Positions 9,601-55,421 of a stretch of DNA of 64,000 nt are shown here, piece after piece; positions within the stretch are counted from its first letter, which is position 1; every line of letters starts with the position of its first letter. The notes beneath the pieces were generated by a model. The model had not been told where the DNA came from. It searched no databases and was given only the letters and a program-made list of their open reading frames with translations. The position numbers and the translations under genes are program-made. Location of the stretch: positions 16,571,118-16,635,117 of the forward strand of contig NC_087078.1 of the NCBI RefSeq assembly GCF_026151205.1, written 5' to 3'. This DNA is from Bolinopsis microptera. Its lineage: Eukaryota > Ctenophora > Tentaculata > Lobata > Bolinopsidae.

Positions 9601-11504
9601 ACGATTTAGCTTACCCATGGGAAGAGCAGGGTCATGAGCTGGACGAACTATATCGAAAAAGCCAACTTTTACGAGATGAGGATGGTTGTGCCGATGGCTG
9701 CCAAACATCCAGCTGGACACCCCATGTGGTTGCAGGAACTAAAATCATAGTCAGAGCGTTACAAGACAACTTGGAGAACAACCCTGAGTCTTCAAACTGC
9801 TCATCGGTGACAGAATTTCGTAGGCAGATCTTCGAAACGATCGTCAACGAAACCAGAGAGATTGAAGTGGAACTGGATGCAAATGTCACTCTGAAAGTTA
9901 GCTTTAAAGGAAGGACAATATCGTCGCCCACTAAACTAGGAATCTACAGGAGCAAGACAGACGATCACCATATTCTTGGGGAGGTATCTCCAGAGTTGTT
10001 AAAGGTAACCAATTATCCTCTTTTCCAAAATATCTCGCATTATGAGAAGAGATGTTCGGTGGACTGTCTTCCGGGAACTTACAGCTTCTACAAGACCGTG
10101 GCCGATCTTACCATTCTCCCTTGCTGCTGGGAATGTAAAAGATGTTCACCCAATCAATTTTCCAACCAAACTAATCAACACAGATGCCACAAATGTCGAA
10201 GCAACGAAACAACAAATGAAGATAGAACTGGGTGCCGAAATGTGGAAATAATCTACATAAAAACAAGCTCTAATGTTTTTATCGGTGGAATCACGCTTGT
10301 AATAATTGGGATAGTGTTGGTAGCCTTAACAGTTGTTCTGGTCTGGAAAAATGAAGAAAGGCCAGTCATCAAGGCCTCGGAGCCGGGTTACATGTACACT
10401 ATTCTAGCTTCGATAGCTGTCGGCTTTTTGGGAAGCATCATGCCATTACTCGAGCCAAATCAGTTGGTATGCAGCATGGAATATGTGGTTATAATTATCT
10501 CTTCGACATTGATCACGACAAATCTTCTGTGGAAGTGTATTAAGATCCATGGCATATTCGCAGCAGCAAACTCCTTCCAGAGACCTAAGTTTGAGATGGC
10601 TCTGAAGCAAGCTGGACATGTCTTTTTAAACAGTGTTTCGCTGGCCTTTGTCACTGTTTTCCTGTTCATTGATGGATTTGGAACTGGGCCTGGCTGGAAG
10701 TTCCATATTCATCAAAAAGTTCACCATGCGCCCAGATACCCCAAGTGTTATCTGAGAAATGATTACCAAGGAGCTATCAGCGTCCTCCCCTTGTCTCTCC
10801 CACTCGTCTACTTTCTCGCCACCCTCATTTTTGTCTTCAAGATGAGAAAGTTTCCCCATAATTTTCGGGAAACTTTGAGCATTTTAGGGGCCACCCTGAT
10901 AGTCACCTTCTGCTGTGTGATGTTTCTCAGTGGCTACAGTGTCTCTCCTCCCGAAACACGGGCTCTGCTTCGATCTATTGTCATGTATGTAACTTACCTT
11001 GCATTTCTTCTGTGCCTGTTCCTGCCTAAAGTGATCATTCTGGTAAAAAAAGATGTCGATACAGAAGAGGAGAAGCGAATTATCCAAGAGTCACTTCGAG
11101 TTTTTTCAAGCAGGCCTACAAGAGCCAGTAGAACGGCGGGACAAAGATTGTCAGCAATAAGTGTTGCTACGCCCACCAATTCGCCCAAGAAATCGCCCAA
11201 GAATTCACCATCAAATTCGCTGAAGCCCTCACCAGCACTTGGTGTTAAAAGATCTCAAGTATCGGTATCTCCAACTGCAAGTCCTAGTAGTATACAAAAA
11301 GGCAAGGCTTCCCAGGCTATGGCCCAGGCAGGAGGTCGCACTCGTCCACGACAAGTTGGTACTCCCAAAAATACGATAAACCCTCCTCCAAACAAAGCAA
11401 CTTCGGTGCCAAAATTAGCTGTGACAGAATGGAGGAAGCGAACGACTAACGCGAACGTAAAGATACAAATTACTGTGGATAAAGATGAAGAAAACACGAA
11501 TTAA
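3630..11504 (+). CDS. Class C GPCR, tandem copy 2 (two exons seen, 5' exon not found)
   Basis: Exons are 3630-3938 and 8897-11504, joined by a phase-2 intron (AAG^GTATGA ... CTCCAG^ATTAAAG) that keeps the frame as RTKL-R-LKGISLGYEI, a typical first strand of a class C ligand domain. The first exon starts after TTTGTTTAG and holds a leucine-rich signal-peptide core (LLLSLLLASC), then the start of the Venus-flytrap domain. The second exon carries the rest of that domain, a cysteine-rich NCD3G linker (about 10,050-10,240), seven helices (about 10,270-11,050) with conserved IKASEPGYMYT after helix 1 and FLPK after helix 7, and a ~140-residue Ser/Pro/Thr tail. Expected role: plasma-membrane receptor for a small ligand such as an amino acid. 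The ligand cannot be read from sequence. Helix, linker and splice-site evidence agree; subfamily is unknown. No in-frame ATG precedes the signal peptide. Confidence 0.88.
4062..4200 (-). repeat. tRNA-derived SINE-like insertion
   Basis: Read on the minus strand, the segment begins GGGCTGGTGTTGTGG, a pol III A-box-like start. About 50 bases later it has AGTTCGAGCCTC, a clear B-box (GTTCGANNC). The spacing is that of a tRNA head. It interrupts intron sequence: copy 3 has the same flank up to CTTGACC and then differs. A functional tRNA is unlikely because I see no acceptor stem pairing, so a SINE is the better reading. Confidence 0.6.
4269..5782. mobile_element. Foldback element 1, TTAA-bordered, with long inverted arms
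   Basis: The left arm (4269-4535) is repeated in reverse complement by 4890-5040 plus 5665-5782. Both ends read TTAA then a GGGG- or GTGG-type start and share the block CACCAAAGCC. The loop is about 4536-4890. The right arm is split by some 620 bases of unrelated sequence (about 5040-5665). No transposase is present. TTAA borders with long arms suggest a non-autonomous piggyBac-type element, which is inference. Confidence 0.65.
5320..5384. repeat. Perfect 65-nt hairpin (32 + 1 + 32)
   Basis: Thirty-two bases from TCAATTAGTGCC to GGATACGTA are followed by one G and then their exact reverse complement. I found no mismatch reading both arms. It lies within the sequence that splits the right arm of foldback element 1. 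Confidence 0.9.
5779..6821. mobile_element. Foldback element 2, TTAA-bordered
   Basis: The arms are about 5783-6160 and 6445-6817 and are reverse complements with scattered differences; the loop is about 6160-6445. The ends are TTAA + GGGTGG and CCCCC + TTAA. Its left TTAA (5779-5782) is the same one that ends foldback element 1, so the two abut exactly. There is no coding capacity. Confidence 0.65.
6942..8615. mobile_element. TA-bordered element with 6 + 6 mirrored CCCTAAAATGTCA motifs
   Basis: The ends are inverted repeats (left CGGGTAA + C-run + CTAAAACGTCACC; right the reverse complement, ending TTACCCG) flanked by TA on both sides (6940-6941 and 8616-8617). Motif CCCCTAAAATGTCA occurs near 6957, 7144, 7305, 7337, 7858 and 7882 in forward orientation, then near 8040, 8061, 8222, 8245, 8575 and 8591 in reverse. 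No transposase ORF is present. It is probably a non-autonomous Tc1/mariner-like element, judged by the TA border only. Confidence 0.7.
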
Positions 11505-15265: not shown

Positions 15266-18200
15266 GATTGCTTGCATCTGTTTAAAAACTGGACGCACGC
15301 TGGCTCGGTTACCTCTACTTCTCAGTCTGCTACTGGCTTCCTGTGCCAGTTCAGCCTGTTCTGGTAGAGCTATAGATGAACCTATAGAATACCTAGATGG
15401 AGACTACATAGTGGCAGCGATATTTACGGTAGGCAGCTTCATACAAACGAGCCCGGACAACCAAACACATCCTGACGGATACTGTCTTAACTATACAGAT
15501 AAGTCTTTCTGGGGCATTCAGCGAGCCTTAACTTTCCGGAGAACAATGTTGGCAGAGAGGACTAAACTAAGGTATGACTCATATCTTTGTTTTATACCAT
15601 TATAATTTTACGTGGGTAAACAGCCACCTGCCACTTGGACACATATTACCGAGTATTGCATAGCCAATGATAACTAGTGTTTACAAAACTGTCTTGACCG
15701 AGTGGCTTCAAATTTGGTTTACAACAATTGTAGCAAGACAATTTTTTGCAGACCAATTATTTCGTTCCAAATTTATTATAAAAAATGCTCCCAAAGCCTC
15801 CACAAATTATAGCTAAGAATGCCATTTTACCATTTATATACCATTTAAATAGGAGCCAAATGCAATTTCTTTTGCTCACTAATAAACTGAAAGTTAGTGC
15901 ACATATTATGCATATGAACTAACAATTGTTACTCCAGATTAAAGGGGATCTCTCTGGGGTACGAGATTTATATCAACTGTGACAGTGGTATTGTTACAAA
16001 CAGAATTTCTAACAAGCTTGGATCAAATAAAAAAGTTATTGGTGTTATAGGGATTGACCACGGACTTTACTCCGAAATATTTGCACGGCAGACCACCTCA
16101 TTTTACATCCCAACGGTTACCTACATTTACAACGACAAAACTCTGATGGATCAGAAACAGTTTCCAACATTGATTTCACTTATATCCACAAAGGAGAAGG
16201 AGGGAGAACTGATAGTCAGGTTCTTGGAAGAGATGGATTATGGATACATGGACATTTGGTATCATCAACTGTCAAAAGAAATCGCGGATCACATATCCAA
16301 AGGATATTTAAGTGAAATTGGTCATTGTGGCAGGACTCAAGGAATGTCCAAAAAGCTTGATGAGAACAGTCACTTATTAAAGGATTATTATGGCCCTACA
16401 AAAAGTTCGGCAACTGTACAACTCCTTCTTCAAAACAGTAAATCTGCGTCGATGGAATGGCTGAAATATGTAACCGAAAATTTAGGATTTAGGAACAAGA
16501 TTTATGTTACGGGCACCTCAAATGGCAGGGATATTTACCACAAGGAATACAGCGACGTTTTAAGACGCCTCAACGGCAGCGACGACACTGTCATCTATCC
16601 TCTTTCAGCTCTAATTAACACTCAGCTTTCTCATCATAACAACGATCTTGCTTACCCATGGGAAGAGAAGGGTCATGAGCTAGACGAACTATATCGAAAA
16701 AGCCAATTTTTACGTGATGAGGATGGTTGTGCCGATGGCTGCCAAACAACCAGTTGGACACCCCATGTGGTTGCAGGAACTAAAATCATAGTCAGAGCGT
16801 TACAAGACAACTTGGAGAACAACCCTGAGTCTTCAAACTGCTCATCGGTGACAGAATTTCGTAGGCAGATCTTCGAAACGATCGTCAACGAAACCAGAGA
16901 GATTGAAGTGGAACTGGATGCAAATGTCACTCTGAAAGTTAGCTTTAAAGGAAGGACAATATCGTCGCCCACTAAACTTGGAATCTACAGGAGCAAGACA
17001 GACGATTACCATATTCTTGGGGAGGTATCTCCAGAGTTGTTAAAGGTAACCAATTATCCTCTTTTCCAAAATATCTCGCATTATGAGAAGAGATGTTCGG
17101 TGGACTGTCTTCCGGGAACTTACAGCTTCTACAAGACCGTGGCCGATCTTACCATTCTCCCTTGCTGCTGGGAATGTAAAAGATGTTCACCCAATCAATT
17201 TTCCAACCAAACTAATCAACACACATGCCACAAATGTGGAAGCAATGAAACCACAAATGAAGATAGAACTGGGTGCCGAAATGTGGAAATAATCTACATA
17301 AAAACAAGCTCTAATATTTTTATTGGTGGACTCACGCTTGTAATAATTGGGATAGTGTTGGTAGCCTTAACAGTTGTTCTGGTCTGGAAAAATGAAGAAA
17401 GGCCAGTCATCAAGGCCTCGGAGCCGGGTTACATGTACACTATCCTAGCATCGATAGCTATCGGCTTTTTGGGAAGCATCATGCCATTACTCGAGCCAAA
17501 TCAGTTGGTATGCAGCATGGAATATGTGGTTATAATTATCTCTTCGACATTGATCACGACAAATCTTCTGTGGAAGTGTATTAAGATCCATGGCATATTC
17601 GCAGCAGCAAACTCCTTCCAGAGACCTAAGTTTGAGATGGCTCTGAAGCAAGCTGGACATGTCTTTTTAAACAGTGTTTCGCTGGCCTTTGTCACTGTTT
17701 TCCTGTTCATTGATGGATTTGGAACTGGGCCTGGCTGGAAGTTCCATATTCATCAAAAAGTTCACCATGCGCCCAGATACCCCGAGTGTTATCTGCGAAA
17801 TTATTACCATGGAGCTATCAGCGTCCTCCCCTTATCTCTCCCACTCGTCTACTTTCTTGCCACCCTCATTTTTGTTTTCAAGATGAGAAAGTTTCCCCAC
17901 AATTTTCGGGAAACTTTGAGCATTTTAGGGGCCACCCTGATAGTCACTTTCTGCTGTGTGATGTTCCTCAGTGGCTACAGCGTCTCTCCTCCCGAAACAC
18001 GGGCTCTGCTTCGATCTGTTATCGTCTATATAACTTACCTTGCATTCCTTCTGTGCCTGTTCCTGCCCAAAGTGATCATTCTGGTACAAAAAGATGTCGA
18101 TACAGAAGAAGAGAAACGAATTATCAAAGAGTCACTTCAAGTTTTTGCAAGCAGGGCAAGTGGAATGGGAAAAAGATTGTCAGCGATAAGCGTTGCTACA

Positions 18201-18461
18201 CCCATCAATTCGCCTAAAAGATCACCAAGGAATTCGCCATCAAATTCGCTGATACCCTCACCAGCACTTGGTGGTAAAAGATCCCACGTATCAGTATCTC
18301 CAACTGCAAGTCCTAGTAGTATACGAAAAGGCGAGGCTTCCCAGGCTATGGCCCAGGCAGGAGGTCGCACTCGTCCACGACAAGTTGCTATTCCCAAAAA
18401 CACAATAAACTCTCCTCCAAAAAAAGCTATTGCTATGCAAAATATAATCGTGGAAGAATGA
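15266..18461 (+). CDS. Class C GPCR, tandem copy 3 (two exons seen)
   Basis: Exons are 15266-15571 and 15938-18461, joined by a 366-bp phase-2 intron with the same borders as copy 2. It has the same architecture: signal-peptide core, Venus-flytrap domain, NCD3G linker (about 17,090-17,285), seven helices (about 17,310-18,090), FLPK, Ser/Pro tail. The first exon lacks one codon found in copy 2 (TDKSFW against TSKKSFW). The helix 4-5 loop is almost that of copy 2 (KFHIHQKVHHAPRYP) and unlike copy 1. The C-terminus is shorter and ends IIVEE. The reading frame is fully open, so this and copy 2 are the intact pair. Ligand and subfamily are not known. Confidence 0.88.
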
Positions 18462-26910: not shown

Positions 26911-26945
26911 GCTACAAGGATACAAGGATACAAGGATACAAAAGT
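26911..26945 (-). repeat. Decamer tail at the 3' end of the AlkB LINE
   Basis: The decamer ACAAGGATAC is repeated about three times. On the minus strand this reads TATCCTTGTA repeats just after the LINE's 3' UTR. Short terminal repeats instead of poly(A) are usual for CR1/L2-type LINEs, so it likely marks the element's 3' end. Confidence 0.6.
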
Positions 26946-27111
26946 GATAATTATTTTATTGAGTTCACAATAGTTATAATTCTGAAATAATTTAAGTTAC
27001 ACACTTCTAATCATTTACAAATGTGTAGGGATAAAATAGAAATGTTATAATATAATGCTATTTTCTTTAAGAAAATCAAATTTGTATGGTTCATGAGTTT
27101 ATTTTGAGTTC

Positions 27112-30100
27112 CTAGAGCATTATGCACTTGCCAGTATTTGAGTGGAAATCTGGGCTCTTATAATAGGCTGTATATTGTTCGTTCACAGAGAGAATTGAAT
27201 GGATTGCTCTTGCTGTGGCAGTAAATTTGGTAGGATCTAGATTTTTGTTGGAGAGCAGACCGGCTAGGTCAGTGATGTTTTGGGGATAAAAGTTGAATTT
27301 TTCCCTAACTGAGGAGTAAAGCAAACAGTCAATTAATACATGGCTTTCGTCCTCGATAGGTTTGAGCCCTTTACTGAAAAAGCAGTAAGTGCACCAACGT
27401 TCTTCTCTTGGTACAAGAGGGGTTTCGTATCTGCCCCTTTCAACGTAGAGGTTGTGGCAGCTGATACGAAACCTTGTCAAGCTTTTTCGAAAATCAGGTA
27501 CTTCGATTATTCGTAGGTATGCCTCTGGTTCAAAATCATGTTTAATTAAGTTATAGAATTCTAGTTTTGGTGAGGAGGCCTTGGCAGATTTCCAGGTATT
27601 CACGAATTCTTCCCTCATATTATGACTGATTTGGGTGGAGAGCTTAGATTTTGATGAAGATGAGTGGGGGAAGTTGTATTTGGTGAGAAGCTTTGAGATG
27701 TTGGTATACCAAGGAAGGCCCAGCTCAGCATGATCTGCTCGTGAAATGCAGCACAAAGTAGTTCATTTTCGGTGCTTTCAAGGCGACTATAGTAATCTAT
27801 TGCAAGTTTGCAGGCTTCAAAGAATAGGGGGTGGCGCCCACTTTCGCCCCAGCAACCTATATTTGATGCTTTTGAATGGACGGACAAAGACCACTTGATA
27901 AATTTTAGGTGGAATTTCTCATAGTGGTCCTGTGCAATGTACTTCAGGGTATGCTGGGGGCTGGCTTTGTCATCTATTTTTGAAAGGTATCTCATTGTTT
28001 TAGAGTGGGGGCATAAGACTTGACAGCCATAAAGCAGGATTGGTTTGATTAAGGAATCAAATAGAATATTAAGGGCACGGTGAGAGAGGGCATCTTTAAC
28101 TATATTGCCTTTAAGGCCATATAGAGCACGGAGAGCTTTGGCCCTCAGCTCAGTATTTGCTGCCGTAAAGGATCCATTTCTGTGGAATATTATGCCAAGA
28201 TAGCAGTACTTTTCGGTGTGCTGGATGGGCTGACCTCCCAATGTAAATGTTTCATGGGACTGCTTCTTTTTGGGAGGGCTGAATATGACAATCTTAGTTT
28301 TCTTTATATTTACTTCAAGGCCCATGGAGTTACAGAAGTCAGATAGAATGTTGATATTGACTTGCAAGGCCTTGGGACTTAGAGCAAGAAGGACAAGATC
28401 GTCAGCCCAGAGCAGATGTGATATTAGAACGTCAGCAAGAACTGGATAATCACCAACAGATTTCAGAAGAGATGACAAGTTATTAATATAGATTTTAAAA
28501 AAGTCTGGTGATAGGGGGTGTCCTTGCTCCGTTCCTTTGCCAATATCAATTTTAGGGGACAAGAGTTTGGAGATTTTTATATGAGCAATTGAGTTTTTGT
28601 ACATATCACTTAAGCAGTTAAAGAAGTTACCGGTAATTCCAAGGCATGTTATTTTGTGCAGAAGAAGGTCCCTACATACAGTGTCAAAGGCCTTTCTTAG
28701 ATCAACAAAGCATGCATAGAGACGAGCTTTTTTAACTTTAGTGTATTTATCAATGACTGTCTTAAGGGTGAAAACGTGATCATTAGTTTGAGCACCCTTC
28801 GAGAAACCGAGCTGTTCTTTTGGATCAGGACAGTAGAGCTTTTTGAAGTATAACAGACGTTCAAGTAAAATGCTAGAGAACAGCTTACCCATACAACTGC
28901 CAACTGCTATTGCTCTGTAATTGTCTGGGCTGAAGGGGTTGCCTGATTTGTAGATAGGAGTGATAATACTGGTATGCCATGGATAGTAACCTGAGACCAG
29001 AGAGTGGTTGAACGTTTTGAGGATGACTTGGAGACAAAGCGGAGTTAGGCTCTGAAGCATTTCGTTTGAGACCAAGTCATTTGAGCAACTTTTACCCTTT
29101 TTGAGCTTTTTGATTGCAGAAGTTAGTTCGGGTTCAGATATGAGCTTGTTTAGGATATCCAGATCTGGTGGTTCAGGGTAATGATTGTGATTGTGGTGAG
29201 TGGGATCGGGCTCCTGGTCTGGTTTCTTATAGAGGGATGCAAAGAAATCATGAAAGCTAGCTAGATCGAATTTGTCTAGTAGGGGGCTAGTGTCATGTTC
29301 TTGTTTAAGCCTTTTAAATTTTTTCCAGTCAAGAATATGACCCTCTTCAATAGCTTCATTTAACTTCCTAAGAAAAGATAATTTCTTACTGTTAACAAGA
29401 TTACTGTGCTTATTGCGCTGCTTGTAATATTCACGTCTGAGAATATCGTTGCAGTGCTTACTACCTAGCCGGTTTGCTAGCCTATTCAGGTTTCGCCTCG
29501 AGGAGTTGATTTGTGGGTCAAACCATTTCTTGTGGGCGGAAGTTTTAGGAGGTTTTTTCACTTTTAACGCTATATCAGCAGCACTGTGGAGACAGTTAGT
29601 AATTGCATCGTTCAGTTCATGATTGCCCTCCAAGGTGCTGCTAAATTCGTTTGCTGCAATGTTTTCCAGGCTACTAACAATTTCGGGCGAGTTAAGGGCT
29701 GTTTTAAATAGTGAGTGAGAGGTGTTGCTGTCCCACTTATAGCCACAAGGAAAATTAGAAAAGTCTGGGAGCTGGAAGTTGGCAACAAATGGTTCAAATG
29801 TGGTAAGTTTCAAGACTAATGGACAATGGTCAGAGTATGATGTAAACTCCTTCACTTGGAGAGAGTTTACATGATCCCTTGCCCATGAGGTGATTACGAA
29901 ATAGTCAACCACACTGCTCCCATTGTATTTGTGACAGGTCATTTTTCCAGTGGTGTCCCCGAGGGTACGGCCATTAAGAATTTTGAGTTGGTTATTAATA
30001 ACCATGTCAAGAAAATGTTGGCAGTGGGGTTCAGATATAGTCAGGTCAGAGTTGTTTCTGGGTTCTTCGATGTCATGTTCAAGTCCAATGTCATTGTAAA

Positions 30101-30605
30101 TGTCATGCATGGCAGGTGCATTACAAGAGAGGATATAGTCTGGGAGTTTTCCAGTTCTTGCATTTGCATCGCCACACATGATAACCTCTCCCTTTTGACG
30201 TAGTCTGATACAGATGGAGTCAAGAGCGGAGAAAGTATTAGCAGTATAGTCTGGATTTTTTTTGACATAGGACGAATATGCAGGGCTAATATAGTAACAT
30301 ACTAAAAATAGGTCAAAATCAAGCTTAAAAAAGTTTTTGTCAAGTTTGACAACAATAATATCGTCAGATTCGCTACAAGGCACACAAGAAACACCTTTTC
30401 TTAAATCATTTTCAGCAAGAATGCAGACCCCTCCTGAGCGAGAATTTTTGCGGTTGCTATTAAAAGAAAGGTATCCTTCAATCTTAACTTGTTTCTTTGT
30501 TTCTTGGAGACACAGAATGTTAGCTTGATTGAGGATTGAAAGAAATTCTTTATTTTCAAATTTGTTAGACCCATCTCCTGTGCTGTCCTGAATGTTCCAG
30601 GACAT
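27112..30605 (-). CDS. LINE ORF2: APE-type endonuclease + reverse transcriptase (one frameshift)
   Basis: ORF2 belongs to the LINE whose ORF1 lies at 30658-33080; 52 bases separate the ORF1 stop from this ATG (30605). The N-terminal ~240 residues are an apurinic-type endonuclease (MSWNIQD, LCLQETKK, MCGDANARTG, YSDHCPLVL). The reverse transcriptase follows: NYRAIAVGSCMGKL, LGFSKGAQTNDHV, CFVDLRKAFDTV, GTEQGHPLSPDFF and the catalytic LLWADDLVLLA. The frame slips once near 27,750. The rest of the C-terminus (27756-27112) ends in a CTYC...HVLIDC zinc-binding pattern and has its own stop. The element class is CR1/L2-like by layout. This copy is inactive in cis unless the slip is an assembly error, and it is otherwise well preserved. 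Confidence 0.88.
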
Positions 30606-30657
30606 TACAGCGAGTTAATCTCGTGAGGCTTGTTTTTTATTGAATTTCATGGTTATT

Positions 30658-33080
30658 CTAACGCTCTGTGGGGGGCTGCTTTCTATAGGATCTCATACCA
30701 AAGGCACGGTATAGGCCAAGTTTGATATTCATACAGAGTTTTTTTAGACCATACTCTGAGACATGAAGTTGGTCTTCCTTCAGAGGGTTAGGAGAGTCTT
30801 CAGATGACTCAGCAGCAGAGATGGCTCGGGAGAAGTTTCCAGTGTTGTTTACAGTGAAGAGGCGCCGGTATAAGTCACTAAGCTCTCTTTTAGTGGAGAC
30901 AAATTGGGTGATCTCCGAAACAAATTGATTTGTTAGATCACTTATTGGGCCAGGAGTTGGAGTGGGCAGGGAGACAACAATTTTAGCACTGGAACTTGAG
31001 AGGAGTGTGTCGATGGCTTCTTTTGCATCCTTGACTGCTTTATTAACACTAGCAGGAACCCGTCTAACCCTAAAGTGGTGTCAAGACTCGAGAGACTAAA
31101 ATAATTATTATCTATTTAATTCGCGTTTTTGACACCACTTGAGAGTCCAAATTTTGGGCACTAAAATTATTATTCCTTGGCCAATTTTTTATTTTTTCAT
31201 GCTGATTTGAAGGCCATTAAAGCATTTGACCCAGTCAAAAAAGTTTCAGTTGTATATGTTTTACGGTTTTTGCGGAAAGTCGCTCAAAAGCTGATGCCGT
31301 GGTGTCAGTAAAATGGCACGGATATATACACATATATATATCGTCTCGCTTTATATATAGTAAGATGACGGTCATTATATCTGTAATCATTAACTCCGAG
31401 CTGAAGAATGTAGCAGTCAACTTCTGGTTCTTTGATCACATCTCTCATGTGTTTACCGTTCAGGTCAGTAAAGGAACCTACTTTCTTTTTTTCAACCTTG
31501 AACCCAGAAGAGAAAGACTCGGCTATAAATCCGTTCATCTGAGAGTCATGAAGGAGGAGCACTTTTCTCTGTTTTCTGGTTTTTCTATGGGGGTTCTGAG
31601 TTGTGCTATTTGAGCTTTCACGGTTCTGGTTTTGAGCAGGATGAGGCGAGGGCCTTTTCTTTTGGGGATTTTTATGGCCATTGAGCTGGAGAGACTGCAG
31701 GCAGGCCTTAGAGACCTCAACCTCGTTTTTAATAGCAGTGATATTTTCTTCAAAGGCTTTAAGGGAGGTAGCAGTGTCTTGTTGATTTGAGTTGATGCTA
31801 CTCATGATTTCCTCAAGCTTTTCAAGTCTCTTGTCCACAGTATTCAGCTCGTTAGACAAATTAGGGGAGCTGGGGCTACCTTTTTGATTGGATTTGTAGT
31901 CAGAGCACAAGACAAGAGTTTGCAGGGTGGTATGTTGCAGGCTAATTTTAGCTTGAAGGTCAATAACAGAGTTTTCCATGGTTTGGAGGGAGTGGGTGAT
32001 GCAGTCAGGCTCAGCTGAGGTAGATGGAGGCTCAAGAAGAAGCAAGCTGAGGCGTTTGTGACATGCTTTCACAGCTTTCTTTAGTCGTTTCTTACAGTCA
32101 ATGAGGGACCCTGAGTTTGAGCTACCATGACGAGAAAGTTCACTTTTCACCATTTTTTCTTTTAATGAATCAACGGCTTCTAACATTGCTTCTAGACTGA
32201 GAGGGAATGTCTCACTATCAGAGACTGAAGTTTTACTGCTGGTCACGGAGGGAGAGCTTGAGGCCAGAGGAGATCCGACTGGGGAGCTTCCAGTGATGAT
32301 GGTTTGTAGTGATGTTAGTGTAAGAGAAGATCTACGTCTGTTTTGAAGCGACTGGGAGCTTGCGGAGTCTCCTGGGGTCTTGGGGGCAGGTACAGTTCGC
32401 GAGTACAGGTTCGCGAGTACAGGAGTGATGGCCATATCAATAAGAGGTGTAGATAGAGCGTTTCTGGTACGCAGGAAGCTGGAGTTGCAGGTCCTATAGG
32501 TCACTGAAGTGCGTGCAGCAGTGATTGCATTGTCTTTGGGTATTTGGTGAGTGTACTTTTTTTGGAAATCAGTACCATGCATAACGAGAACTGAGCCTTG
32601 GTCAAGTTTGATTGTGATGGCATTTCCAGAGTTCTTAGCCTCTCTAATGAGCATACAGCGTTGTTGACCGAGTGACAGAGTAACAACAGGTTTAGAGAGG
32701 TCAACCTCTGGCTCATTATCGCTATGTTCGCTACAAGAATCTCGACCTGTCCTATACTGGTTGATCAAAAAGCAATCAGAGGAACAATCGATGTTGTTGG
32801 GTTGAAAGATGTTTTCCGCCATGTGCTGATATGCTGCAATAAGACGAGGACATTCTGACACAGAGTTGGCTTTCATTACAATTCCTGAGAATGCGTAGTC
32901 AACAGGGCCATACCAAGATGACAGTCGTGGGAGCTGTACTTGAGCCTGCTTGTGGATTGTGGTGTACTGTTTGAGGGCACCAGTGTTTTCAATTTCACAA
33001 GCGAACTGATCACATAGCTGACTTGGAAAAACATCCTGGAAGAGACTAATACTACAACCAGAGTCAGGGTTACAACGAGC
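30658..33080 (-). CDS. LINE ORF1: AlkB-like dioxygenase + coiled coil + SGNH/GDSL esterase
   Basis: The frame is open from 33080. The first in-frame ATG is 32876, but homology begins before it (LPRLSSWYGPVDYAFSG, about 32,960-32,900, like ALKBH2/3 PRLTAWYG). Numbering from the 32876 Met: SEHSDNEPEV gives the HxD iron ligands H51 and D53, TLSLGQQR and LDQGSVLVMHG are the core strands, YTHQIPKD supplies distal H110, and R122 and R128 (ARTSVTYRTC) are the 2-oxoglutarate arginines. The H+12 and H+18 spacing is that of ALKBH3 as I recall it. A Ser-rich linker and Leu-rich, probably coiled-coil stretches follow (about 32,250-31,650). The esterase then has block I LLLHDSQMNG, block III LGVNDYR and, beyond a ~240-base insertion, block V DQLHVSEYG. 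The stop is at 30658. No initiator ATG precedes the AlkB domain in frame. Confidence 0.82.
31078..31325. mobile_element. Small insertion splitting the esterase domain of the LINE ORF1
   Basis: On the minus strand the esterase reading runs to LGVNDYRYNDR (near 31,365), then meets AT-rich non-coding sequence and a stop. It resumes in frame with RVPASVNKAV from about 31,068. The intervening ~250 bases contain GGTGTCA/TGACACC three times and no coding sequence. This is probably a short non-autonomous element; exact borders were not fixed. Confidence 0.5.
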
Positions 33081-33116: not shown

Positions 33117-36100
33117 TGTTCTGAACAAGTGGACAACTCTTGCGATAACTGGAAATTTGTCTACATGCCTAACAATGATAAATGGTTAATAAATAAATTA
33201 TAACATACACCCCCCGTAAAAATCAAATAAAATTTAAAAATTTAACAAAAGGAAACGCGCAAATGCGCGCGTCAGCTGAAAAATTGTGCTTTTTATACGA
33301 ATTAGCGCCATTTCAATGCGCAGATAAAGATACATTTGATAAAACATTGATAAAACTTTTCAAAAGTCACATACCCGCAAGAAACCAAATAATCGGTTCA
33401 TATAAAAATACATCTTTCATAAACATGTGTTGTTCTAAAAGGCACTCATAAAACATGAATTTGTAAAACACGATTCAACATGAATTTGTAAAACCTCAAA
33501 TCTACCAAGTTATAAATCCGATTAATACCATAAAAATCACAATTCCAGAAAACATATCATTCATTAAACAGCAAGTCAATAACGTTTCAACCTGCCTCAA
33601 ACCGCGGAGGAGGTACTCCCTTATTAGTCCTCTGTGACCTACGTAATGCAGGGGTAAAGTCCGGTACCACAACATCCAACGGCGGAACAGCAGGGTTACA
33701 CGTATTCTTAGTAGGAACAGAGCCACTATCTTGTCCGATTACAACAGGTCCTGCGGTTAATTCCCTATCAATAGTCTGTACTTCACCGCAATCAACAACA
33801 GAATTTTGTCCAGGGTCAATCTCAACTTGACCTGCCAGAGGAGCAATATCCCGAATCGATACCGAGGCCTCCCTTCCGGAAGCAAACCTAACTTTAGCAG
33901 ATTCAGGCTGTAGTGAGACAATATCCACCTCTTCGCACAAATCATCGTACTTATTAGACCTCACGTGTTTCTTAAGAAGAACCTTGGATGCCCCGATAAG
34001 CCAAGAAGGTAGAGAATTACCTGTGGCAGATCTCCTAACATAACTAAATAATCGCTCATGAGGTGATTGATTAGTTGAGGTACATAATAAGGTGCGGATA
34101 GAGTGCAGAACTTGAGGGAGGACCTGTTCCCAGTGACATGGTGCTAATTTCTTACTAGCCAACGCCAGTTCAATTCCTTTCCATATAATGGCATTATATC
34201 TTTCAACTTGGCCATTTCCTCTGGGATTATACCGGCTGCTATTTGAGAATCCAATGTTGTTCTCAATTAGGAATGATCTGAATTCGTGAGAGACGAGTGA
34301 TGGTCCATTATCCGAGTGAACCATCCCCGGAGTACCGAACAATGAAAATAAATTCATGAGCGCCTTAATCACTGTCCTAGACTCTTGATCACGGCACGGA
34401 ATGGCAAACGGGAACCTCGAGTACTCGTCAACTACAGTTAATATGAACCTGTTCCCTGTACCACTTGGTAAGGGTCCCTTAAAATCAATGCTCAATCGTT
34501 CAAAAGGTTGTGTTGCCTTAATCACAGGAGAGTTCTCGGACTTACAGAAACGTGGTTTAATCTTAGAACACACCACACATTTCGCGATGGTCTCTTTTAC
34601 CTCCGCTAGAGAATAGGTAAGATTCTTACTCCTAACGAAGTGATACATTCTAGTGACCCCAGGGTGACATAGTTCTTCGTGAATCCGAGAGAGGGAAGGA
34701 CCTGTATGATATGTAGCAGCACTAAATGCTCTTGACAAGCAGTCCGCTGTGACATTAAGCGGGCCTGGTCTGTACTCTATGTCAAAGTCTAGACAGCTGA
34801 GTTCAATACGCCATCGGTCTATCTTGCTGTTTTTAGTCTTTCCATGATTCTTTTTATCATATATGTACGAAACAGCCTGCTGATCCGTAAGTAATTTAAA
34901 GTGCCGGCTAACTAAGTAGTGTCGCCACGCACGACATGCCTCCACAATAGCACAAGCCTCCTTCTCCACTGCATGATGTTTCCTTTCATGAGGCTTCAAT
35001 GTTCGAGAAAAGAATGCCACCGGTTTTCCTCCTTGATTCAAACTGGCCGAGACTGCAAAATCAGAAGCGTCAGACTCTAGCACCATCTGCTCATTAGTGT
35101 TAGGGCAGACTACACAGGAACCCTCTATACACGTTTTCAGATTATTAAATGCCGTGATTGCCTCTTTCTGTAGGGGGAATTCCGGGTCTATCAAAGGTCG
35201 TACCAAGTCCGAGAATTTTGGCACCCATTTAGCATAATAAGAGAATAAGCCCATGGCCCTTTTTAGTGAGTCAGCATCATGTGGTACCGGCAAGTCCCTC
35301 AACGGCTGCATGCGCTCAGGATCAGGACGGATAGTGCCGTGAGAAATTTGATAGCCCAAAATGTTGATAGTTTCAACTGAACTTATAGTCTTATCATGAT
35401 TCAACGTTAGTCCCAACTTCTTAATAGTCGACAATAACCCCTTGACGTTTTTGTCGAAATCTTCCTGATCATAGCCCCCAACAGTTATATTGTCCAGATA
35501 AGGAAAAACACTATCTAACTTATTTTCCTCCACAAGTATGTCCATATTACGTTGAAAAACAGGCCCACCATTAGTGACTCCAAAGGGAATGCCATTAAAT
35601 TCAAATAGTTTCCCAGCTGCTTCAAAGGCTGTGAGTGGCTTTTCTCCTTCGAGAATCGGGATTTGATGGTAGGCAGACTTAAGATCAAATGTGCTATAGA
35701 TCCTGTACTTAGCTATCTGCGAGGCCATAGTATCAAGGTTTGGCAGAGGATACGCATCTAAGTGTGTGAATTTGTTGATCGTTCGAGAGTAGTCTACCAC
35801 CATTCGGGGCCTTGCTGAATCTAAACCTGTAACGAGGACCTGTGCTCTCCAAGGACTATTACTTGGCCTAATAGTGCCCTGTTCCAATAACTCTTTAACC
35901 GATTTTGCTATAAATGCTCTCTCTGCATCAGAGTACTTTCTGGACCTACAAGCGATTGGATTGGTGCCTTCCATTAATGTGGAGAATAGAGGTATGGGCT
36001 CAAGGTTCGACATTGAAAGCTGTGCACAGTTCCTACCAGCTTCATCTATCACCAAGGGATCTCTATTTCCTCCGAAATTAACCACAAAATTCGTATGACT

Positions 36101-37426
36101 TCGGAGTAAATCCAAACCCACGATTGCGTCGCAACATAGTTTGTCCATAACTGATAATTTACACTCTGAATAGGTGTGGCCTTCAATCACAATATCTACT
36201 ACACAGGACCCCTGAGTGTTTGTTGACATTGATTCCGAAGCTAAAGTTATTTTGTTCGTACCAGGGCCTATCGTTATGCCATTTCGCCTAGCAAAACCCA
36301 AGTCAACAAAACTCTCTGAGCTACCAGTGTCAATCAAAATGTAAGCGATATGATTATTTACCTTTGCGTTGACGGTTGTCTGAGACAGCGTTGAAGGTGT
36401 CGATGGAGACATAGCACAAAGATAAGAGAATGGGGATGATTGCTGGGGCTGATCAGCAGACGGGACGTTGTAGGCGTTGTTAACTGGAGTATAAGCGTTG
36501 TTTGCAGAGTTCTTCTTAGAGAAGTAATCATTAGGTGCGGTCTTCCCAAGACCCGTCGCTGATCGACATACTCGTGCCCAATGTCCGCGCTTACCGCAAG
36601 TTTTACAAGTAGTATTATTAGCAGGACACGCTGTTCGAACATGGTACTCCTTACCACAATATCCACACTTTATATTAGGACTAACTGAATTGCCGTGAGT
36701 GGCAGCTACAACCGCATGATCCTTTGAATCCAGTCCAGAATCGTTTCCCTTAACAATACCATTTAGATTAGAACCGTTATACTTTTCATTGTTTGAGATT
36801 GATTGCTCCAGAGTACAAGCCAGAGTGATGGTATCATCTAAACTTTTAGTGTCCTCCATTAGGCGCTGCCGAATTTGCTTGTCCCTTAGCCCACTGATAA
36901 GAGCTGTTCTAATGCTCTCTTCCCCATGAACAGCAGCTGATACTTCGGTAAAATTACACTGTTTCGCCAGTGTCCGCAACGCCAAGACGAATTGATCAAC
37001 TGATTCAGCTTCAGTTTGACTCCGTGTAGATAAACAAAATCTCGCAAAGTTAGTATTCTTTGTTTTAACAAACAAACCATTCAAGATCTTAACTGCCTCC
37101 GAAAACTTTGTTTCACCCTTGATAGTTGTATATATTGAGGGGCTCACATAATTGCAAAGCACCATATATTGTGTCTCTTCGGTGTTAGCTTTTTCACCAA
37201 GAATAGTAATAAAATTGTCTAGAGTCTGTTTCCAGTGCAGGTAGGTATCTGCAACTTCGTCACCTTTATCTGTGAGGGTGATGTCCAAGCGCTGAGGGCT
37301 TAAAAACTTTTCCATGATGAGGGATGTAGACAAATATGTTCTGAACAAGTGAGACAACTCTTGCGATAACTGGAAATTTGTCTACATGCCTAACAATGAT
37401 AAATGGTTAATAAATAAATTATAACA
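33117..37426 (-). mobile_element. Ty3/gypsy LTR retrotransposon with very short LTRs, looks nearly whole
   Basis: The LTRs are 33117-33205 and 37337-37426 (about 90 bases, TG...CA ends), flanked by the 5-base target duplication ATGTG (33112-33116 and 37427-37431). A single long gag-pol frame runs on the minus strand between them (about 37,310-33,587). It holds a gag region, paired zinc knuckles, aspartic protease (IDTGSSESFV), reverse transcriptase, RNase H and integrase, in the Ty3/gypsy order. The two LTRs are almost identical, so insertion is very recent. It sits just upstream of the LINE ORF1. Confidence 0.9.
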
Positions 37427-49780: not shown

Positions 49781-52085
49781 ATGGTTGAAACAATCCCAAA
49801 ACAAAACGTCAATAATGCTAACACTTCCTCTACCCCCCAGAAAAAAGCTAAGACCCCAACAATAGTTGCTGCTGGAATGCTACGACAACTAGACACCAAC
49901 CTGCTGAAAGCTGTCCAAAGTTACTTTGCAATGGAGGCAGATAGTACTGGAAGTGGTGCATCTTGTACTGAAAGTGTCACAGGTATTTTAGGAGCTGCTA
50001 AAAATCTTAGTGGCTCTGGTTCTTCGGATTCTGAAATAACCTCTGACACTATCTGTTGCTTTAATGCCAGTGGGCAAATGTTATGTACCCTTTTATCTTT
50101 CGATGAGCATACCTATAAATTGTTACTACCAGCAGAACTGAAGTCTGATGCAACATATCTCTCTCCTGCTGAAAGGGTCAAACTACTTTCTCAGCTAACT
50201 TACTTCAAAGACCCTCAAAGCAACGAAATTGCTGAACTGGAGTGGATAGAACTGATCAGACCACAGATGTTAAGTGTCCTTTCTGACCATGGTATCACTC
50301 CTACTAATCAAGATACTGATCAGGATCTAAGACGCAGATTATATGGAAAGCAATCCTTTCGTAGCAGTCACGGTGCTGAGGATAAGGTGGCATTATTTGG
50401 TTTTACCCTTAGAGAACCTTTGGTCTGTTTGTCCACTAGCTCCTTCCCAAAGGAGGACTACACCTACAAAACTAAACTTACAACTAGCTTCGTCACTGAA
50501 AAAGTTGAATCTGCTAAGACTCAAAGCTTAACACCTAAGCATGATATGCTAGAGTCTGGCAAAAATAACTCTGTTGAACCAGGATCGAAAGAATCTCCAC
50601 AAAGATACAGGATGGAATCAAGTGAAAGGGGCACTCTATCATCAACATCATCTAGCTCACTTGTACTTGAAGGCAGTACACCTGACATCAACGAGATGGA
50701 TCAAGAAGATGGGGATGCATTCACACCTCCCAACATAACATTTAACAACACTTTTGACTACAGAATTGAATCTAGAGCTGAGGAGGGTATCAATGATACT
50801 GGTGGCTCATGTACAATCTGTAACCAAGATGTTAGCGCTGATCAGCTTCTTACATGCTATCTATGCAAACTTTCAGTTCATTACACCTGTTACAAGGTGA
50901 AACAAGTAACAGCTCACAAACAAAAGATGCGTAACCTGAGCCACACAAATTTCACAGCACTTGGAATCTCCCAGAACAACAAATGGTTTTGCAATGGCTG
51001 CAACTCTATTTCCTTTGATGATATCCTGGAAAAGATATCTCTACATACTCAGGAGAAATTCATAGATGCTGTTGAGAAAAAAGTTAAACTGGTGAATGAT
51101 ACTACCTCAAGTTCCCTTGAAGGAGATTTTGATATCTCCCAATTTTCACTCCCTGACTACCAAGATACGAAGTCACAGCAATCTGAACATGAGATTACCA
51201 ATATTCAGCAACTCAAAGACTCCATCACAATGGAACTAAGAGCTGCGCTAAAAGAAGAAGTAAAAACGTTAATCTCCGCCATAACACTATCCCATAATCC
51301 AGCTCAGAGCAAGCCCTTTACAATGTCTGCAGAAAATGTATACAAACCACCTGCATCATATTCTGAAAAGGCAAGACCACCTCACTCTCATTTGAGCACC
51401 AACACTTTCATAGAACCCCCAGTGGTCAAAGAGCTTACAAAAAAATCAGCTAGTGCAGTGCATTAAAAAGACAAGATATGGCAACATCATTCTTCAACTA
51501 AACTCTGAGGATGATATCAAACAAGTACTAAATGGATGGCAATCCCACTATTTTAAAGACACCAGTGCAAAAATAGGCACAGCGATATTCAGAATGACTG
51601 ACCAGCATCTGACAAAGCATGTAGGCATCATAAGGCATGTCCCCATAAACATTGATATGGGCTCTATCTCTGATGGACTTAAAAATGCCAATTTGAATAG
51701 CACTCACGTAACTCGCTTGGGCAAATCATCAAACTCTGTTAAAGTCATCTTTAAGTCACATGAGGATCTTACACAAGCAATAAGCAAGGGATTCGGTCTT
51801 GAACACTTATGGCTAGAAGTTGCTCAATTCAAGTTCACCAAAAAACCAATGCAATGTCATGGCTGCAAAAGATTTGGACACCCTGTGAAATGGTGCCGCA
51901 GCAAAGCAGCATGTGGATTCTGTTCCTCAGAAAACCACACTGATAAAGAATGCCCGGAGAGAACCCATCCATCAAATTACTGCTGCCGCAACTGCAGAGG
52001 AAATCATACAGCCTTCTCAAACCAATGCCCACATTTCATAGAAAAAATGAATCTGATTAAACAAAGTAACCACCATGATTACTAA
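49781..52085 (+). CDS. LINE ORF1: PHD finger, RNA-binding-like region and three zinc knuckles (one frameshift)
   Basis: Two overlapping frames, 49781-51466 and 51453-52085, read as one ancestral ORF1; the switch is near 51,460 (KSASAV / CIKKTRYGN). A C4HC3 PHD finger lies at about 50,810-51,005: CTICNQD, CYLCKLSVHYTC, WFCNGC. After the switch there is a gag-like region (IKKTRYGNIILQL) and three knuckles: CHGCKRFGHPVKWC, CGFCSSENHTDKEC and CCRNCRGNHTAFSNQC. ORF1 proteins of this kind coat element RNA. PHD fingers are known in ORF1 of CR1-like LINEs. The last codons overlap the ORF2 start by 11 bases, typical of coupled translation. One slip aside it looks recent. Confidence 0.85.
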
Positions 52086-55000
52086 AAACAACGGAAGTCT
52101 TCATATCTGTCAAATAAATGTCAGTGGGCTATCAAACAGGTCTATTACAGCAATTGATAGATTCAACTTTAAGTTCAAAAATGACATTGTGGCTCTACAA
52201 GAAACTCTACTGGATAACTCCAGACCCCACTTAAATACCTTTCATAATCTGGATACATTTTCGGTAAACAATAGCAGAGGAGTGTCCACCAGTGTTTCCC
52301 CCAGGCTTGTCCCACAACAAATCAGTGAACTTCAAGATACAACCACTGATGCACTCTGGGTCACTGTTAGGTACAATTCAACGGTAGTAATGATTGGTAA
52401 TGTATATGTAAACCACTCCCTAACTTCTACAAACAACCTGAGCTCAGCACTTACCAACATCACAAAAGCTCTCCAATACTGCTCCAAGTTCAAAATCAAA
52501 GATGTAATAATAATTGGTGACTTCAACAGTAGGCACATCTCCTGGGGAGATATCATCACAACCGACCGTGGAAGACAGCTGGATTCATTCATCGCTCAGC
52601 ATAATCTGACATGCATCACTCGCACTCCGAACACCAATACATTCGTCTCCCATAATGGTGGGAGTATCATTGACCTTGCTTTGTTGAAGGGTAAAGTATG
52701 TAGGCTATACCAATCGTCCAGCATTGACAGTGAAAGTGAACTCTTCACAGGTGCTCCAAATAGAGGTCACTTACCAATCATCCACCAATTCTGTCATGCA
52801 CAAACTGCTCAATCTGCATCTCCTCTTCTCTACTGGGACATTGATAAAACAGACTGGAATGCTTGGTGTGGATCACTTAACAGGGCCCTTCTCCTTGGCA
52901 TAACAGGCAGGATCAACTCTTACATAGACCCTCTAAAGCTGTGGCAAGACTTTAAAAACATTTTATCTGCGATTGGTAATGAATGGATTCCTCTCAAGAA
53001 AGTCAGTACCCACTCAAAACCTTTCTGGAACTCTCTCCTTACAGACCTTTCACGAACTCTTCAAGCTGCGCAGGAAACCATGAAAACCAGCTACACACCG
53101 CATAACGTCTCCCTCCACAAACAAGCAAAGGAGGAGTTTTCTAATACCTTGATATCCGAAAAAAACAAATGGATTCATCAGCAACTGGAAAATCTCAATG
53201 TTGCTCAGTCTCAAATATTCTGGAAAAAATATAAGAAGACATTGACCAATAAGCCTAACGAGTACATGGGAAATCTTATGGATGGTGGTATCCTCCACTC
53301 TGACAGAACTCAGAAAGAAAACATCTTGTACAAATCATTCTTCTCGGGTGAACACATAAATGGATACAGTTTTGATCATGTCTTCGAACAAGAAATCAAT
53401 AGCTGCTATGACAACATTATATCGACTCAGTTCCCTACCGACCAATTAGATGCAATCATTAATGATCATCTGAATGGGAAAATAGGTCTAGAGGAAGTTA
53501 CTTTAGCACTGAAGGCTCAAAATAGCAATGCCAAAAGTTTTGACACTGATAATCTCCACCCAAAAATCCTGAAACATCTGCCTGTGTCAGCTCTTCAGAT
53601 TCTAACAAAACTATATGACCTTGTCCTTGAGACTGGTGTATGGGTCTGGGAGGTATCCAATGTCACTTTCATCAAAAAGGATGGGAAGGATAACTACATG
53701 AACCCCTCTGCTTATAGACCAATATCGATATCATCATATGTTGGAAAGCTGCTAGAAAAGATCTTGGAACGAAGAATAAAGCTCCATTGCGAACTAGAGG
53801 GCTTACTCGACGAAGAGCAAGAAGGCTTTAGACCTCAAAGAAATACTGCAAGGTATCTTTATAAATTAGTAGCTACTCTAGATGAATGCAAAAGGAAAAA
53901 ACTCACTACTTTCCTGCTATGCATCGATTTTAGCAAAGCATTTGATAGTGTATGGGTGAAAGGCCTGATTTTCAAGCTCAGCAAATACCAAATACAAGGG
54001 AACATTTTGCGGATAATAAATAACTTCCTGTTATCCCGCAAAGTACGGCTGAGGGTTAACAACAGTCTCGGATTTCAACGCTCATGTGGATGGTTTGGGC
54101 TTCCCCAAGGCTCTGTCCTTGCACCCCTGCTATTTATCCTCTACATCTCGGATATGTTATGCAAGGACCAGCTCCCACTGGAATGCAGCTCTAACTCAAG
54201 CCTCTTCAAATATGCTGATGATGGAAGCATAGCAGTCTCTCACATAGATCCTATATATGTGCTCATCGAATTATGCAGTTGATGTGCAAGTACCTTCATG
54301 TCTGGTGCAGTAAGTGGAAACTTATCCCAAACTGCGACAAAAACAAGACTGAGTGTATTATGATCACACCAACATCCTCATCTGCACCTGATGTCACAGC
54401 CTTTGGACCACTCATTATCGGCAATAGACCCATAACATATACATGTCAATCAACTGTTCTTGGACTGAGGATAGACGACAAACTTACGTTCAAAAGTCAC
54501 GCAAAATTTAAATTGAAACAATGCTGGTTTGCCTGGTACAGGATCACTCAAAACTCCACCCGCCACAGAGGCCTGAATGCAAGCTCACTCAAAATGCTCT
54601 TCAAAACAGTAGTACTCACAAAACTTCTATATGCTGCTCCAATATGGCTAAAAGATAACCTAGATACTTTCAAAGACTTCTATGCCAGGGTCCTCTTGAA
54701 AATAAGTGGATCCACTCACCATCCTCCCAAAGATTTGACATCTGTCGCGCTTGGAATTCCACCCCTTGAGATATCCTACAAGATGATCACTATAAAATTC
54801 ATAATAAAAGCACTTACAAGTGACCCATTTATGCAAGGATTCATCTTACAGCTAGAGGAGGCAAAGGCCCATCGATATCAGCACCATATTGATGAGATAC
54901 GTAAGTTCCTAACGTGGACAAGGGGGTCCAACGAGCTCAACAGAAGCAGAATAGACCTTCTGACTAGTGTCCACAACGGTGTTGTCAGCTATTCAAAAGA

Positions 55001-55421
55001 CGAAATAACCCGCTTTATGGACTTCACCTGGAATAAACATCTCCTACTGAACCCTAGAATAAATCCGGGTGAGATACTGGATAACATCGATGAGAGGAGC
55101 AAAAAGTTGTTTCCTCGCTATTCAAGCAGGAGCACAGACACTAAAGTAATGTCTCTCTTGCATGGCCATGACATCACCTTCACAGCATTCAAGGCAAGGG
55201 TTGCCAACAACTGCGACCCTCAGTGTCCGAATTGTCAGATGTTGGACAACAATTACCATCGAATCTTCTCTTGTCCACTGTACCGCTGTTCCTACAGAGA
55301 AACCATTCAAGAGCACTCCACTAATGACCAACCATGCTGGTCTATCTTAAGAGATGGTAGTGATGGCAGCATCACTGCCTTCCGATCTTTAGCACAGATC
55401 GCCATCGGTGAACTATCATAG
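52075..55421 (+). CDS. LINE ORF2: endonuclease + reverse transcriptase (one frameshift)
   Basis: The frames are 52075-54282 and 54273-55421; the switch is near 54,275. The endonuclease has QINVSGLSNRS, ALQETLL, IIGDFNSRHISWGD and NRGHLPI. The reverse transcriptase has AYRPISISSYVGKLLEK, GFRPQRNTARYL, CIDFSKAFDSVW, LPQGSVLAPLLFIL and FKYADDGSIAVS, Jockey/I-like in style. The second frame holds thumb and connection regions and ends with a zinc pattern CPNCQMLDNNYHRIFSC. No RNase H domain was seen. The 3' UTR runs to about 55,900, with AAATAAAG near 55,866. Confidence 0.87.

Follow-up and report, generated by a model that had tools for sequence, protein, structure and literature searches.

The 64,000-nucleotide stretch of the Bolinopsis microptera genome analyzed here (the window; contig NC_087078.1, forward-strand positions 16,571,118 to 16,635,117) carries on its minus strand, at 26913-33073, a copy of a long interspersed nuclear element (LINE) whose first open reading frame (ORF1) encodes an AlkB-type dioxygenase domain upstream of an SGNH esterase. 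This copy, a member of what is designated family A, spans 6161 bp including a 312-bp insertion, and is young, 5'-truncated, and broken. By blastn it is 99.7-99.9% identical to the copies L031 (contig C9) and L032 (contig C13) over two blocks of 1713 and 1048 bases, which comprise ORF1 and the start of ORF2, and 99.8% identical to them across the final 488 bases of its 3' end. Homology to these intact copies extends from 33073 (5') to 26913 (3'), so that the N-terminus of ORF1 is missing. The ORF1 frame runs on the minus strand from 33083 to a stop at 31305, and encodes the AlkB domain (32487-33071), a coiled-coil-like stretch (31686-31970; residues 372-466 of P0001) recognized through weak Pfam coiled-coil matches only, all below cut-off (best E 0.02), and the first part of the esterase with its Ser and GxN blocks (31361-31587), delimited by alignment to the intact copies. 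The insertion (31049-31360), which is absent from L031 and L032 and contains an 18-nt imperfect inverted repeat (31067-31084/31129-31146), splits the esterase, whose second part, with the DxxH block, continues to the end of ORF1 (30658-31048). The original prediction, made from the window alone, had placed AlkB, coiled coil, and esterase in one frame; the coil-like stretch and the start of the SGNH domain are indeed in frame with AlkB, but owing to the insertion and the stop the frame is not open throughout in the window copy, whereas L031 and L032, among others, have AlkB, coil, and SGNH in a single open frame.

Downstream on the same strand, the ORF1 stop (30658-30660) and the ATG of ORF2 (27615-30605) are separated by the 52 bases originally proposed. 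ORF2 encodes an APE-type endonuclease (EN; 29817-30605; matched above cut-off by PF14529 with E 8.5e-7 and below it by PF03372 with E 3.3e-4) and a reverse transcriptase (RT; 28188-28943; PF00078, E 4e-27). At the protein level, seven more copies in the genome are 100% identical (rounded) to this RT. Both ORF1 and ORF2 are open in L031 and L032, where ORF2 has 1191 amino acids (aa), whereas the ORF2 frame of the window copy is broken near its end, with 999 aa open; its C-terminal part lies in a different frame (27112-27756) and has the same C-terminal residues as the 1191-aa protein. The copy ends in short tandem repeats of the TATCCTTG type (26913-26945), which also end the ten other copies compared. 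An ORF1 with esterase or PHD parts, together with 3' octamer repeats, may hint at the CR1/L2 clade.

The AlkB assignment itself was confirmed by a match of ORF1 residues 33-197 to PF13532 (2OG-FeII_Oxy_2) with E 2.4e-21 and 77.3 bits (cut-off 31.2), and the nearest solved chains to the window AlkB are ALKBH3 (E 7.1e-16) and ALKBH2 (8.2e-9). The five residues first singled out as ligands (H51, D53, H110, R122, and R128, numbered from the ATG at 32876) do align with the iron and 2-oxoglutarate (2OG) ligands of human ALKBH3. In an alignment of 15 rows, consisting of 12 LINE AlkBs and the ALKBH-like loci L022, L025, and L027, these ligands (there H116, D118, H175, R187, and R193) are invariant in 15/15 rows, as are E120, L102, Y106, and Y59, and the 2OG-binding Asn of the pocket is nearly invariant among the LINE AlkBs; the AlkBs of the other families described below, B to F, share merely 20-27% identity with that of the window. 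The ALKBH3 equivalents of these nine residues are, in the same order, H191, D193, H257, R269, R275, E195, L177, Y181, and Y141, of which H191, D193, H257, L177, and Y141 are named in PMC10816986 and R269, R275, E195, and Y181 were numbered by counting. According to that source, H191, D193, and H257 are the iron ligands of human ALKBH3, the L177A and H191A changes almost abolish activity, up to 30% of activity remains in Y143F, and the substrates of the enzyme are N1-methyladenine and N3-methylcytosine (PMC10816986).

A profile built from LINE AlkBs only (10 rows) matched the solved chains of ALKBH3 (4.9e-26), ALKBH2 (3.8e-21), ALKBH8 (4.2e-11), and AlkB (2e-8), with a DNA N6-methyladenine demethylase (5.7e-4) and ALKBH5 (0.008) at its weak end; at E 0.01 ALKBH1 was not matched. 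In sequence, the LINE AlkBs are thus nearer to ALKBH2/3 than to other ALKBH proteins. They are also marked by Thr131 and Ser189, present in 10/10 LINE rows, at positions occupied by Ala and Asn in human ALKBH2 and ALKBH3 and in the loci L022, L025, and L027. Single-protein scans of IMG/VR with the L028 and window AlkBs returned no relatives. Within the same genome, L022 (448-1962, plus strand) is an ALKBH3-like gene in a single frame, extended at its N-terminus by a Gly/Arg-rich stretch, and is probably the host's own enzyme; both ALKBH2/3-like loci L022 and L025 look like host genes, apart from the LINEs. The third such locus, L027, has an ALKBH3-like frame (1084-1971) with an SGNH-like frame 0.7 kb downstream (2683-3462, plus strand; PF13472, E 3.4e-4, below cut-off), and in the AlkB tree it groups with the ALKBH3-like L022 (support 97/93), apart from the LINEs.

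The search for other genomic copies, which had been suggested as a check, found AlkB preceding an SGNH-like domain in the ORF1 of six LINE families, A to F, all families and copies counted belonging to one genome, the Bolinopsis microptera assembly. With the window AlkB as query, the best 150 of 601 candidates were scored and 147/150 lacked an internal stop, the top 17 matches (window included) being 81-100% identical; with the family E AlkB, 143/150 were free of stops among the best 150 of 784 candidates. Over both searches, at least 270 distinct places with AlkB were obtained (29 common to both, one duplicate removed), three of which are the ALKBH-like loci mentioned above. ORF1 frames were read for family A (the window and loci among L031-L046) and family B (L023, L024, L026, and L028-L030), and from single loci for C (L051), D (L049), E (L050), and F (L052); in every one of them AlkB is followed by an SGNH-like domain. 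PF13532 was matched above cut-off in all six families (A 4e-22; B 9.9e-21 and 1.9e-22; C 3.6e-18; D 2.1e-13; E 2.1e-14; F 6.8e-16), with scores of 51.4-80.9 bits. Families D and E have in addition a PHD-like finger at the start of ORF1 (E 0.0016 and 4.3e-5; 18.9 and 23.9 bits, the cut-off being 24). An endonuclease-like ORF2 follows ORF1 in five of the six families (A-E), on the evidence of Pfam EN and RT matches for family A and of reading and blastp for the endonuclease of B-E, where it was seen at six of the ten non-A loci (L028-L030 and L049-L051); at L023, L024, L026, and L052 the flank is short or no endonuclease-like frame is listed.

Family A shows the hallmarks of a LINE, with dispersed copies, a common 3' end, and variable 5' truncation, and its RT is present on each of the 13 large contigs. 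Its ORF1, measured from a Met common to the three copies, has 743 aa in L032, 745 aa in L035, and 730 aa in L042. Family copies lacking AlkB had been named as the finding that would undo the proposal; in family A, the ORF1 frame reaches 700 aa or more in ten copies, and 10/10 are among the AlkB matches listed. For C8:10015413 (591-aa frame) and C7:17578050 (508 aa), whose frames were not read, an AlkB match is absent among the matches listed, and 5' truncation is the simplest reading; the remaining family A SGNH matches lie in shorter or broken frames. All five ligands are present in 15/18 fetched family A loci. A motif scan matched 14/18, missing L033 through one non-ligand change with all its ligands kept; L046 is interrupted, and L047 and L048 are without a complete domain. 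Overall, the ligands were found in the window copy and in 25 of 28 scanned LINE loci (15 of A, 6 of B, and one each of C-F), a scan that left out the degenerate or partial L019-L021.

For the esterase, the best Pfam GDSL matches are below cut-off (A 0.071; B-E 1.3e-5 to 0.001), and there are none in family F, where SGNH was recognized by its aligned Ser, GxN, and DxxH. Residues S15, G64, N66, D166, and H169 are invariant in 8/8 rows of the SGNH alignment, and the corresponding profile matched, among solved chains, PAF-acetylhydrolases and the ZfL2-1 esterase 4c1b (3.8e-9). A separate oxyanion Gly of block II, a feature of such enzymes, has no invariant counterpart in this 8-row alignment. At E up to 0.1, the ORF1 frames scanned from the six families gave no match to an RRM or CCHC family.

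Selection on the module was estimated as the ratio of nonsynonymous to synonymous divergence (dN/dS) by NG86, with YN00 alongside, in three pairs of family A subfamilies represented by L032, L035, and L042. The AlkB part (195 codons; dS 0.29-1.07) gave 0.05 in 3/3 pairs (YN00, 0.07-0.08), well within the value below 1 that had been anticipated for a working module. The other parts gave by NG86 0.04 for EN and 0.04-0.07 for RT, with looser values of 0.10-0.18 for the 45-codon N-terminus, 0.11-0.14 for SGNH, and 0.24-0.28 for the linker and coil. With values similar to EN and RT and below SGNH, AlkB ranks with the most tightly constrained parts of the family A element. In family B, the comparison of L026 with L023/L028 gave 0.12 for AlkB at dS >1.6, which is near saturation. 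As a separate observation, the subfamilies A1 and A3 (L032 and L042) show a synonymous divergence of 0.75-1.12 in the parts of ORF1 compared with 0.41-0.62 in EN and RT (NG86), hinting at recombination between subfamilies.

By blastp of their endonucleases, the families carrying the module group as A with the related LINE L053 (1.5e-24), B with C (4e-84), and D with E (1e-72). Between groups, the best match was 5.5e-6 (B-D); A-B reached 0.003, and A-D and A-E gave no match at E 10. In the AlkB tree of 15 rows, all LINE AlkBs fall on one side of a branch from the ALKBH2/3-type rows with support 62/55, or 69/75 when the long-branched family F is removed, and a topology joining family A with the ALKBH3 rows was not rejected (approximately unbiased test, p-AU 0.38). 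By blastp, the family A AlkB matched the ALKBH2/3-like loci L025 and L022 (1.5e-19 and 4e-19) slightly better than families B-F (5.6e-15 to 4e-11). Both one ancient module passed among LINE lineages and two or more captures would fit these relationships; exchange of ORF1 types between LINE lineages has been described (PMC4120745, PMC3905857). L053 (C4:13069500-13072400) is itself an esterase LINE with a 2331-aa open frame and, as judged by eye, two apparent SGNH domains in tandem, and no AlkB was seen by eye in the 725 aa read of that frame.

As far as sequence goes, the domain order, the conservation of the ligands, strong purifying selection in family A, the existence of intact copies, and the recurrence in six families are established, and the AlkB of family A is apparently catalytically competent. 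The reading that we consider probable is a functional dealkylase of the ALKBH2/3 type, which would travel with the ORF1 particle and keep the RNA or cDNA of the element copyable. The ORF1 protein (ORF1p) would assemble with the element RNA, and its AlkB would use Fe(II) and 2OG to oxidize alkyl groups off that RNA or off single-stranded cDNA, the likeliest groups being N1-methyladenine (m1A) and N3-methylcytosine (m3C), as removed by ALKBH2/3. These methyl groups lie on the base-pairing face, block pairing, and stall reverse transcription; the element would thus bring a template-cleaning enzyme of its own into the ribonucleoprotein particle, which could leave the RNA template or the first-strand cDNA readable. 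The function originally suggested, a demethylase protecting or unmarking the RNA or cDNA, is plausible. A wider proposal, which is more tentative and for which we would give somewhat less than even chances, is that AlkB and SGNH, with or without PHD, constitute a shared and so far unrecognized type of ORF1, which LINE lineages with barely alignable endonucleases have retained or passed among themselves, with an element-borne demethylase that may repair or unmark the transposition intermediate as a weapon against methylation or alkylation of the element's RNA by the host.

Several observations weigh against a working dealkylase with this role. Family A has Phe at the position of ALKBH3 Tyr143, and families B-F have a shortening in part of the N-terminal recognition region, so the substrate may differ from that of ALKBH3. 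A single-sequence AlphaFold2 model of the window AlkB gave no usable fold (predicted local distance difference test, pLDDT, 37). Within family B, the pair L023/L028 (dS ~0.1) gave an AlkB dN/dS of 0.29 by NG86 and 0.44 by YN00, and pairs of families B and C with dS >1.6 are near saturation or not computable; the family B AlkB is by these estimates constrained, less tightly than that of family A. Purifying selection would also be expected for a mere nucleic-acid binder. Finally, the L054 family, with an RT 54% identical to that of family A and an ORF1 frame of 1001 aa, has no AlkB and no Pfam domain in the 667 aa before its SGNH match; the stretch read leaves about 130 N-terminal residues (given the usual SGNH length) in which a small AlkB could lie. 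The module is therefore probably not universal in esterase LINEs, and if L054 has no AlkB at all, gain or loss of the domain has taken place even close to family A.

Among the rival explanations, the domain could serve counter-defense, erasing regulatory methyl marks (N6-methyladenine in element RNA, m6A, or in DNA, 6mA) through which the host would recognize or silence the element, instead of damage-type m1A and m3C. 6mA is reportedly present in ctenophore DNA, the domain has been retained in six LINE families, and the LINE-only profile weakly matches the DNA N6-methyladenine demethylase chain. The same profile is, however, far nearer to ALKBH3 and ALKBH2 than to ALKBH5, with ALKBH1 unmatched at the threshold given above. 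In favor of this explanation, the AlkB of an orchid Gypsy element demethylates m6A in RNA in vitro (PMC9289625); against it, the mobility of human L1 is suppressed by the m6A eraser ALKBH5 and helped by the writer METTL3 (PMC7873242). We consider this explanation unlikely. Slightly more doubtful still is that ORF1p retains AlkB chiefly for nucleic-acid binding or for structure, in place of RRM or CCHC, with catalysis secondary or lost. Such a role would suit ORF1 frames in which these two domain types were unmatched, and esterase-containing ORF1 proteins are described as lacking structural RNA-binding domains (PMC3905857); but pure binding would not need HxD...H and RxxxxxR, and the invariance or near-invariance of the iron and 2OG ligands, the pocket Asn and Tyr, and the Leu at so low an identity counts against it.

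The slightly better blastp match of the family A AlkB to host-like loci than to families B-F could also be expected had a host ALKBH gene been fused to a LINE in a single event, or from an accident of assembly or annotation. Such an event is refuted as an explanation, with hardly any probability remaining, by the 15/18 family A loci with all five ligands, the five further families, and the at least 270 places in the genome, and the host-like ALKBH2/3 loci L022 and L025 stand separate from the elements. Repeated capture by different LINEs may nonetheless have occurred. The dealkylase reading remains the one that we favor.

Other features of the window include mobile elements and a gene cluster. 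Upstream of the LINE and on the same strand, 33587-37357 (minus) contains the polyprotein of a long terminal repeat (LTR)-type retroelement in one 1256-aa frame, with zinc-knuckle-like, protease, RT, RNase H, and integrase parts. A second LINE lies at 49781-55421 (plus), with a 561-aa ORF1 frame carrying a PHD finger (E 5.2e-5, just under cut-off), followed by a knuckle-like frame rich in cysteine, which Pfam did not match, and then by EN and RT; none of its Pfam-scanned frames matched AlkB. Near-alike genes for class C G protein-coupled receptors occur in tandem at 598-2264, 9105-11504, and 16146-18461, the second and third with 7tm_3 matches (E 1.3e-29 and 2.5e-29) and NCD3G slightly under cut-off, and the first, which these Pfam values do not cover, split over two frames.

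Of the two halves of a LINE, ORF1 is the less well understood, and a conserved enzymatic domain of known chemistry would give it a testable biochemical job. Its presence would suggest that retrotransposition in this host is limited by methyl or alkyl groups on the bases of the RNA or cDNA intermediate, and the conflict between transposon and host over RNA modification becomes testable via a simple demethylase assay. AlkB domains also occur in some plant RNA viruses, which are likewise genetic elements copied from RNA. No description of AlkB in a LINE was found in the titles and abstract openings of open-licence PMC articles, a scope outside which lie Repbase and most subscription journals, and the novelty of an AlkB in a LINE ORF1 is provisional.

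The ORF1 types recognized in LINEs comprise CCHC, RRM, PHD, CTD, and esterase parts (PMC4120745), and the term AlkB does not occur in PMC4120745 or PMC3905857. The closest architecture is the esterase-type (type IV) ORF1 of CR1/L2, RTEX, and some Penelope-like elements, exemplified by ZfL2-1, in which, as here, a coil precedes an SGNH esterase (PMC3905857, PMC4120745). Further likenesses to the LINEs described there are EN and RT downstream, a PHD finger in some ORF1s, and the scatter of ORF1 types over clades. The difference is that in all six families of this study the esterase is preceded by AlkB, which does not figure in the type definitions given in PMC4120745. Compared with human ALKBH3 and ALKBH2, the LINE AlkBs have in common all catalytic ligands, the 2OG-pocket Tyr and (nearly invariantly) Asn, and the equivalents of Leu177 and Glu195, but they are embedded in ORF1, have a shorter recognition region in families B-F, and carry Thr131 and Ser189 in place of Ala and Asn. 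The nearest parallel among retroelements is the Gypsy element of Phalaenopsis orchids, which likewise encodes an AlkB with intact ligands (PMC9289625). That element is a plant LTR element of one lineage, in which the AlkB is ALKBH5-like, occupies a separate extra ORF, and has m6A activity in vitro (PMC9289625), whereas the elements described here are EN/RT LINEs with an ALKBH2/3-like AlkB inside ORF1 in several divergent families, and would probably constitute an animal, non-LTR case beside the plant LTR one.

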